DNA of 40,696 nt, taken from assembly GCA_016874935.1 (NCBI GenBank), contig VGSS01000012.1, positions 1-40,696 on the forward strand, given 5' to 3'. Shown one piece after another: positions 36,318-38,012 of this stretch. Each line of letters opens with the position of its first letter. The first letter of the stretch is position 1. Origin of the DNA: Deltaproteobacteria bacterium (lineage in GTDB: Bacteria > Desulfobacterota > BSN033 > UBA1163). The translations under genes and the position numbers were made by a program. Below the pieces are notes generated by a model. It was given only the letters and a program-made list of their open reading frames with translations, had not been told where the DNA came from and did no database searches.

Positions 36318-37316
36318 ATGATTGAAATGACCGATACCCTCCATTTGGAATCTCCGGCCAAGATCAATCTGAGGCTGGAGGTCCTCAAAAAAAGAGAGGA
36401 TGGATACCATGAGATCAGGACCATCTTCCAGAAGATGAGCCTTCATGATACGCTCCATTTCTCCCTTAAGCAAAGGAGAGGGATCCGGATTACGGCGGAC
36501 CACCCCGGCCTTCCGACCGGGAAAAGGAATCTGGTCCATGAAGCAGTCAGGTCCATACTGGAGAGATCGGACTATGAGGGAGGGATTGATATCAAAATCG
36601 AAAAGAGGATCCCCCTTGGATCCGGGCTCGGAGGCGGGAGCAGTAATGCGGCCACAGCCCTGAAGGCCTTAAATGAACTACTGAAGATAAACCTGACCCA
36701 AAAGGAGTTGATAGAGATGGGGATGGGGATTGGAGCAGATGTCCCTTTCTTCTTGTTTGGAGGGTCAGCAATCGGTTCAGGGATCGGAGAGAGATTGAGA
36801 AAAATTGAACTACCTACCTTATGGTATATCCTCATCAATCCTAATTTTGAGGTTTCAACCCGCTGGGCTTACCAGAATTTCATATTGACCTGTTCGACGG
36901 GGCAACCTCGGCCTGAGCTTGGGTCGAAGACAAAACATGCATTTGAAGGTGGGGTAGCGAAGCGCCGCTCAGGGTCAACCCTGAGCAAACCCCAGCCTTC
37001 AATCTGGGGAGTCGAAGGGTTGACAAAAACGAAATATCATTTTAATCTTCGGAAGTTATTAAAGACACCAGAGGGTATTGTCCGCCTCCTTTGGAACGAT
37101 TTGGAGGGTGTGGTTTCTGGCAAATATTCAGAAATACGCATCATTAAAAGAATGCTTGCCTCAGTGGGGGCAATGGGAGCTATGATGACGGGAAGTGGCC
37201 CAACCGTATTCGGCATCTTCCCGGGAGAGAAAAAGGCAACGGAGGCATACCACCGGTTGAAGAGGAGGGTCAGGGGAAGAGGGTGGAGGATCATCCTGGC
37301 ACATAGTATCCCCTAA
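36318..37316 (+). CDS. ispE: 4-diphosphocytidyl-2-C-methyl-D-erythritol kinase (carries an internal in-frame insertion)
   Basis: SPAKINLRLEVLKKREDGYHEI, GSGLGGGSSNAATAL, GADVPFFLFGGSAIGSGIGE, GAMMTGSGPTVFGIF. Confidence 0.95.
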   Translation: MIEMTDTLHLESPAKINLRLEVLKKREDGYHEIRTIFQKMSLHDTLHFSLKQRRGIRITADHPGLPTGKRNLVHEAVRSILERSDYEGGIDIKIEKRIPLGSGLGGGSSNAATALKALNELLKINLTQKELIEMGMGIGADVPFFLFGGSAIGSGIGERLRKIELPTLWYILINPNFEVSTRWAYQNFILTCSTGQPRPELGSKTKHAFEGGVAKRRSGSTLSKPQPSIWGVEGLTKTKYHFNLRKLLKTPEGIVRLLWNDLEGVVSGKYSEIRIIKRMLASVGAMGAMMTGSGPTVFGIFPGEKKATEAYHRLKRRVRGRGWRIILAHSIP

Positions 37317-37469: not shown

Positions 37470-37544
37470 TGGGGTGTCGTCAAGCGGTAAGACACAGGTC
37501 TTTGGAACCTGGATTCGGAGGTTCGAATCCTCCCACCCCAGCCA
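37470..37544 (+). tRNA. tRNA-Gln (anticodon TTG), CCA encoded
   Basis: TGGGGTG...CACCCCA acceptor stem, CAGGT-CTTTGGA-ACCTG anticodon arm, GGAGG-TTCGAAT-CCTCC T arm. Confidence 0.95.
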
Positions 37545-37915
37545 ATTTATTGAAGTCTGTGGTAAAGAGGATGAGAACCTTTCCCCGACGTGAGGAGGGG
37601 AATCAGGTTCGGCGACCGGAGGGAGGCGGAGAGAGCGAAGCGATCGAGCACATCCTCCCACCCCAGCCAATTTATTGAAGTCTGTGGTAAAGAGGATGAG
37701 AACCTTTCCCCGACGTGAGGAGGGGAATCAGGTTCGGCGACCGGAGGGAGGCGGAGAGAGCGAAGCGATCGAGCACATCCTCCCACCCCAGCCAATTTAT
37801 TGAAGTCTGTGGTAAAGAGGATGAGAACCTTTCCCCGACGTGAGGAGGGGAATCAGGTTCGGCGACCGGAGGGAGGCGGAGAGAGCGAAGCGATCGAGCA
37901 CATCCTCCCACCCTA
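37541..37915 (+). repeat. Three tandem 125-bp units, each ending in the tRNA-Gln 3' terminal sequence
   Basis: GCCAATTTATTGAAGTCTG...CACATCCTCCCACCCCA recurs at 37541, 37666 and 37791, nearly identical. Confidence 0.97.
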
Positions 37916-38012
37916 GCCAATCTTTTGGAAAGTAGAAAGTGGAAAGTAGAAAAAAATATTTTAAACGATCCTCTACCATCCACTCTCCACATTCCAGATT
38001 TAGGGGGTTTTA

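Follow-up and report, generated by a model that had tools for sequence, protein, structure and literature searches.

Palindromic repeats that invade conserved genes in frame have been documented mostly in Rickettsia and in some genomes rich in repetitive extragenic palindromic (REP) sequences, and their mobility is largely unexplained. The Rickettsia palindromic elements (RPEs) are dispersed repeats of ~105-150 bp that occur in frame in conserved genes, where the additional peptide is tolerated (PMC2229807, PMC10969869); one Rickettsia guanylate kinase is translated together with its insert and is active (reviewed in PMC2229807). Descriptions of RPEs give target duplication as unknown and include no internal guide (PMC2229807, PMC10969869). 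Among the IS200/IS605 elements, ISDra2 integrates on the 3' side of TTGAT and leaves no scar on excision (PMC2806898), and in IS608 a movable guide selects the target through base pairing (PMC5934647). Here we analyze a 135-bp segment within the ispE gene of a Deltaproteobacteria bacterium (contig VGSS01000012.1, of which the whole 40,696-bp stretch examined is denoted the window). Comparison with relatives identifies the segment as one member of a dispersed, non-autonomous family of palindromic mobile elements with a gene-less canonical unit of 108 bp.

The inserted segment and its repeat family

The open reading frame at 36318-37316 on the forward strand (332 codons) encodes IspE (match to TIGR00154 over the cut-off, E = 1.2e-67) and is interrupted in frame by the element. 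The initial annotation had noticed TTGAC repeats at 36885-36889 and 37020-37024, in register at codons 190 and 235 and 135 bp (45 codons) apart, and had proposed that an essential gene carries an in-frame mobile repeat. The repeats are as described, and the proposal is supported by dispersed copies of the family and by filled and empty IspE sites; each check that might have refuted it turned out in its favor, and the strong match to a model of the dispersed repeat puts the pattern beyond chance.

We compared the site in the host genome (G000), a Desulfobacterota-type metagenome-assembled genome (MAG), with 16 relatives of the same family, 15 of which have a comparable IspE; the closest named records to the host are MAGs of Thermodesulfobacteriota, Syntrophaceae and Deltaproteobacteria. 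The segment is polymorphic, with six filled sites, the window included, against ten empty ones. In nine relatives (G001, G003, G004, G007, G008, G011, G013, G015 and G016), the site is precisely empty: TTGAC occurs once and the junction gap is exactly 0. The tenth, G010, is also empty but shifted by one codon. The closest empty IspE, that of G007, reads NFILTKTKYHFNLRK, exactly the product that had been predicted for excision. Among the five other filled sites, G006 and G005 contain the same 135-bp unit (89% and 85% DNA identity, respectively), G002 a 147-bp unit, and G009 and G012 108-bp units. Because an extra module of ~27 bp is common to G000, G005 and G006, these three trace to one insertion event, whereas G002, G009 and G012 may have acquired their units independently, at the same TTGAC. 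In a tree of four genes, IspE and ComEC included, G007 joins G000 within the group of carriers (support 1.0); three other genes leave its placement unsettled (support 0.46-0.47). Loss of the insert from G007 by excision is possible.

Nucleotide searches found partial copies spread over the host genome and its relatives, at both non-coding and coding positions. An alignment of 13 full-length copies yielded a consensus fold with an outer stem and three hairpins. The covariance model of the dispersed repeat matches the ispE segment with 90.2 bits (cmsearch, E = 9e-25 within the window), which is the sole confident copy in the window. With this model, and among the 12-150 candidates scored per genome, which makes the counts lower bounds, there were 53 copies in G014, 31 in G032, 22 in G012, 20 in G006 and 10 in the host genome, and none in G004, G008, G010, G015, G017 and G018. 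Across the phylum, matches came from at least 22 of 297 genomes; none were obtained from plasmids, phages or viral contigs. At the Rfam gathering score the element is unmatched, and near the copies only tRNAs were recognized, so that a known RNA family was rejected as its identity.

Altogether, 105 copies could be read with their flanks, corresponding to 87 independent, non-redundant sites. The unit length is divisible by three at 52 of these 87 sites; 24 of the 52 have the canonical 108 bp, and with those removed the fraction is 28 of 63. Codon periodicity was rejected as a family-wide property, there being little evidence for it outside genes. Some copies (L298, 1055-1300; L202; L212; L230) have in turn been invaded by another, REP-like family (TTCGACAAGCCTCTCGACAGGCTCAAGG and relatives), producing nested repeats.

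Target sites and the loop of the central hairpin

Copies start with TTGAC or TTGAT, and a few with TTCAC or TTCAT; the tetranucleotide recurs at the other end of nearly all of them. Empty orthologous sites are available for IspE, ComEC (TTGAT in G007), Lgt (TTGAT in G015) and RimI (TCGAC in G013). In each case the insertion amounts to exactly one unit at a TTGA-like sequence, without any longer duplication, and the junctions are seamless, the filled sequence minus the unit being equal to the empty one. Most sites (~9/10) are located outside the open frames of identified genes. These comparisons show many insertions of the family, nearly all of them at TTGA(Y); the majority lie between genes and some within genes.

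In ispE, the TTGAC on either side makes the boundaries ambiguous, so that the 135-bp unit can be placed at 36889-37023 or, equivalently, at 36885-37019. For ComEC, the nearest relative has TTGAT at its empty site, and the filled site reads TTGAC..TTGAT; thus, the fifth base on the left probably belongs to the element and that on the right to the host. Other sites likewise suggest that the shared host sequence is TTGA. The left TTGAC of ispE (36885-36889) would then consist of the host TTGA target, present once as TTGAC in every empty IspE, and the first base of the element. The right one (37020-37024) would consist of the TTGA end of the element and the host base C, as the flanks and empty sites indicate.

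The loop of the central hairpin is complementary to the terminal pentamers: GTCAA goes with TTGAC, ATCAA with TTGAT and GTGAA with TTCAC. Among the 87 sites, this guide matches the left pentamer in 64 of 68 cases and the right pentamer in 57 of 68, with ~28 expected. The complementarity extends to 10 nt. In 64 of the 81 independent sites, reverse-complementing the loop gives exactly the junction, composed of the three terminal right-end bases, the core and the next three bases of the left end. When junctions were shuffled among copies (300 times), the mean number of exact complements was 24.8 and the maximum 35. Eight distinct matched loop-junction pairs were found, with variation in the right end, the core and the left end; compensatory pairs in separate copies include TTCATCC/GGATGAACCC, GGTTTGACCC/GGGTCAAACC and GGGTTGACCA/TGGTCAACCC. 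On the full alignment, 95.9% of the cells of the left end and the loop are paired, and their covariation is 0.246, compared to 0.112 +/- 0.009 after shuffling; when the partners are slid, it falls to 0.119 or less. Right-end pairs on A2 could not be counted, given that the covariance-model alignment offsets the two subfamilies by one base, and the junction of each copy was read instead. Comparison of the copies shows the loop to be kept complementary to the joined ends (right GGG, TTGA and left CCC or TAC) through compensatory changes.

The host base that follows the right TTGA tracks the guide as well: it is C with 31 of 37 G-guides and T with 27 of 29 A-guides (Fisher tests, 2.6e-10 and 6e-14). 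Provided that this base is host DNA, as ComEC indicates, the host bases at separate sites would count as separate samples. In rare copies (L177, L179 and L213, at 1201 onward), TTCA replaces TTGA on both sides and the loop is the matching GTGAA or ATGAA, which would represent natural retargeting.

Within the ispE copy, all on the forward strand, the outer stem is formed by TTCGAC at 36893-36898 (TTCG invariant in A1, according to the family alignment) and GTCGAA at 37011-37016. The extra module, CCTCGGCCTGAGCTTGGGTCGAAGACA, occupies 36906-36932, outside the canonical unit and in the same place as in G005 and G006; it is also a separate block within other copies, such as C92 of the host genome. 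Of the palindromes that the initial annotation had reported, one, GAAGGTGGGGT at 36945-36955, aligns to R1 as the remnant of hairpin 1, and the other, GCTCAGGGTCAACCCTGAGC at 36967-36986, is hairpin 2. The latter contains the putative guide, GGGTCAACCC at 36972-36981, the reverse complement of the right-end GGG, TTGA and the left end; 9 of its 10 positions are complementary to the junction here, and 10 of 10 in most copies of the family. Hairpin 3, CCCCAGCCTTCAATCTGGGG at 36990-37009, is decayed and is recognized as a palindrome in the window, in the family alignment and by the covariance-model match. These alignments add to the initial annotation the TTGA(Y) target, an anatomy of three hairpins and a guide complementary to the junction.

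Copies within protein-coding genes

ComEC carries the element in antisense orientation in G000, G005 and G006, and so do, within an open frame, Lgt (G014) and RimI (G014 and G012). An O-antigen ligase (G007) and MlaA (G006, past the signal peptide) hold in-frame copies, CheA (G012) a decayed antisense copy, and an HAD-like gene (G014) a copy found by motif only. The interrupted genes bear the Pfam labels Wzy_C, MlaA, GNAT/RimI, LGT and CheA domains, along with ComEC. All intragenic units (87-159 bp) are multiples of three and free of stops; comparison of these frames shows units that are open and span a whole number of codons, such that the genes are predicted to be read straight through.

In ispE, the ratio of nonsynonymous to synonymous substitution rates (dN/dS) is 0.93-1.06 in the insert and 0.17-0.36 in the flanks. 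As judged from these ratios, selection is visible on the frame only, not on the inserted peptide, and, together with the low model confidence, they agree with the earlier view that the segment is not a conserved domain. An AlphaFold2 model made with nine sequences shows the IspE fold with good confidence, and the best matches in the PDB are IspE structures (1oj4 and 1uek). Residues 192-243 fall below 50 in per-residue confidence (pLDDT), with 20-35 over the insert and ~75-97 over most of the remainder. Mapped on the model, the insert is a disordered region within an otherwise confident fold and probably adds a floppy loop to IspE. The IspE of G006 contains a second in-frame insertion of ~20 codons (TRCARRDACRDGARARRVRRE; L023, ~1647-1715), a different GC-rich sequence located after HFSL.

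Elsewhere in the window, ~three tandem copies with a 125-bp period and 99% identity occupy 37527-37921, starting inside the 3' end of a tRNA-Gln gene (37470-37544). By its sequence, this array is a recent tandem duplication at the tRNA end.

Mobilization and relationship to known systems

We consider it probable that this is a repeat family that inserts at TTGA(Y), with its ends and target paired by a guide and an enzyme supplied in trans, and that the copy in IspE forms a tolerated loop. The element would move as a single strand or a circle; base pairing of the central hairpin loop with the target pentamer and with the two termini of the element would let a single internal guide both join these termini and pick the TTGAY landing site. 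The enzyme would most likely be a Y1 (HUH) transposase of the IS200/IS605 or REP-associated tyrosine transposase (RAYT) kind; this is the best guess because ISDra2 inserts at TTGAT and excises seamlessly and IS608 selects its target by base pairing. The insertion in ispE would have hit a tolerant loop, leaving an enzyme that is predicted to work still, with 45 added residues drifting neutrally. More tentatively, and short of what we would call probable, the 108-bp unit may be a non-autonomous element with a single programmable loop guide that pairs the right end, the left end and the target, such that a change in the loop would give it a new destination, and that adds peptides to essential proteins.

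Several observations weigh against this interpretation. The subfamilies are related by descent, which reduces the independent compensatory changes to ~7, not 64, and the guide lies in a hairpin loop, unlike that of IS608, which is 5' of the hairpin foot. No transposase gene was recognized, by motif, beside the copies examined. Only 1 of 70 Y1-transposase loci has the element within ~1.2-1.5 kb, this copy being a complete separate element, and linkage to Y1 transposases was rejected on this count. The search among orphan ends yielded decayed copies only and no autonomous version. The in-frame ispE product, its synthesis and activity included, is a prediction from sequence and model.

The best-surviving alternative, which we regard as possible but unlikely, is an ordinary miniature element derived from IS200/IS605 (PATE-like or REP-like), on which a resident Y1 transposase acts via the terminal hairpins, the loop complementarity being a by-product of origin, for instance, of an old inverted duplication of the ends. 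The TTGAY target without longer duplication, the seamless empty sites and the hairpins are all traits of this kind, and Y1 genes are present in 19 of the 20 genomes searched, the exception, G008, also lacking the element. However, the compensatory variants, in register at the right end, the core and the left end, need continuing selection, the host base tracks the guide, and none of the 70 Y1 genes examined carries the element ends. In G012, ~10 contigs (L092 among them) terminate in one shared C-terminal fragment of a Y1 transposase, pointing to a recent high-copy IS200-type element.

We deem it improbable that an IS110-like recombinase mobilizes the repeat through an element RNA bridging junction and target. 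IS110 bridge RNAs do pair with the junction of the right and left ends around a core, with scarless excision (PMC11208160), resembling the GGG-TTGA-CCC pairing of the loop described here. But the present element has no recombinase, it has a core of 4-5 nt in place of 2 nt, and a single loop is seen instead of two; PF01548 is missing, subject to MAG incompleteness, from G014 and G032, the most element-rich genomes tested, and from the host genome, and IS110 was rejected as the mobilizer for lack of a recombinase in the element-rich genomes. An intron- or intein-like segment, removed from RNA or protein, is less probable still: its location in essential genes speaks for it, and the internal guide recalls group I introns, but every intragenic unit is open and a multiple of three, which weakens the intron explanation because sequence removed from RNA would need no reading frame, and 108 bp is below any known intron or intein core, in addition to the missing Rfam match. 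That six genomes have the segment at the same place might suggest a domain of the ancestral IspE that some relatives have since lost, or else an error of assembly, but the existence of copies elsewhere in the genome, some of them non-coding, already refutes these explanations, which the neutral evolution of the segment, its absence from IspE profiles and its presence in four named MAG records in addition to the window render negligible.

A description of the present family was not found in the open-access literature searched. In-frame insertion as a phenomenon is already known; the element family, the host group and the junction-complementary loop appear to be new. The family offers essential genes in both the filled and the empty state, a defined target and an internal guide open to testing, which makes the mobility of such repeats and their tolerance by proteins directly testable, and, if the loop is indeed a guide, this would be a very small, naturally reprogrammed targeting element.

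Like the REPs of RAYT systems, the repeat is palindromic, present in high copy number and sometimes intragenic in frame (PMC3733652, PMC6006769), but REPs are single hairpins of 20-65 nt tagged with GTAG/CGTC, whereas this element is 108 bp long, with three hairpins and TTGAY ends. The likeness to RPEs, which had been proposed by the initial annotation and is apt for the effect on the protein, lies in a palindromic repeat of the 100-150-bp class found in frame in unrelated protein genes; it is drawn from descriptions rather than from comparison of sequences, and the host belongs to another phylum and, as far as known, not to an intracellular lineage. With IS200/IS605 elements (ISDra2, IS608 and PATEs), it shares insertion 3' of a fixed 4-5-nt target without further duplication (four genes with empty sites; 87 sites), seamless excision, hairpins and transposon-target base pairing (PMC2806898, PMC5934647, PMC3119063). 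It differs in the lack of tnpA, in having TTGAY on both sides, in sharing its ends with no tnpA-bearing element at the 70 scanned Y1 loci, and in its guide, which is a tetranucleotide 5' of each hairpin foot in IS200/IS605 and here a central hairpin loop that would pair with the right end, core and left end. Thus, by analogy, the element resembles Rickettsia palindromic elements at the protein level and the guide-target system of IS200/IS605 at the DNA level, with membership established in neither.
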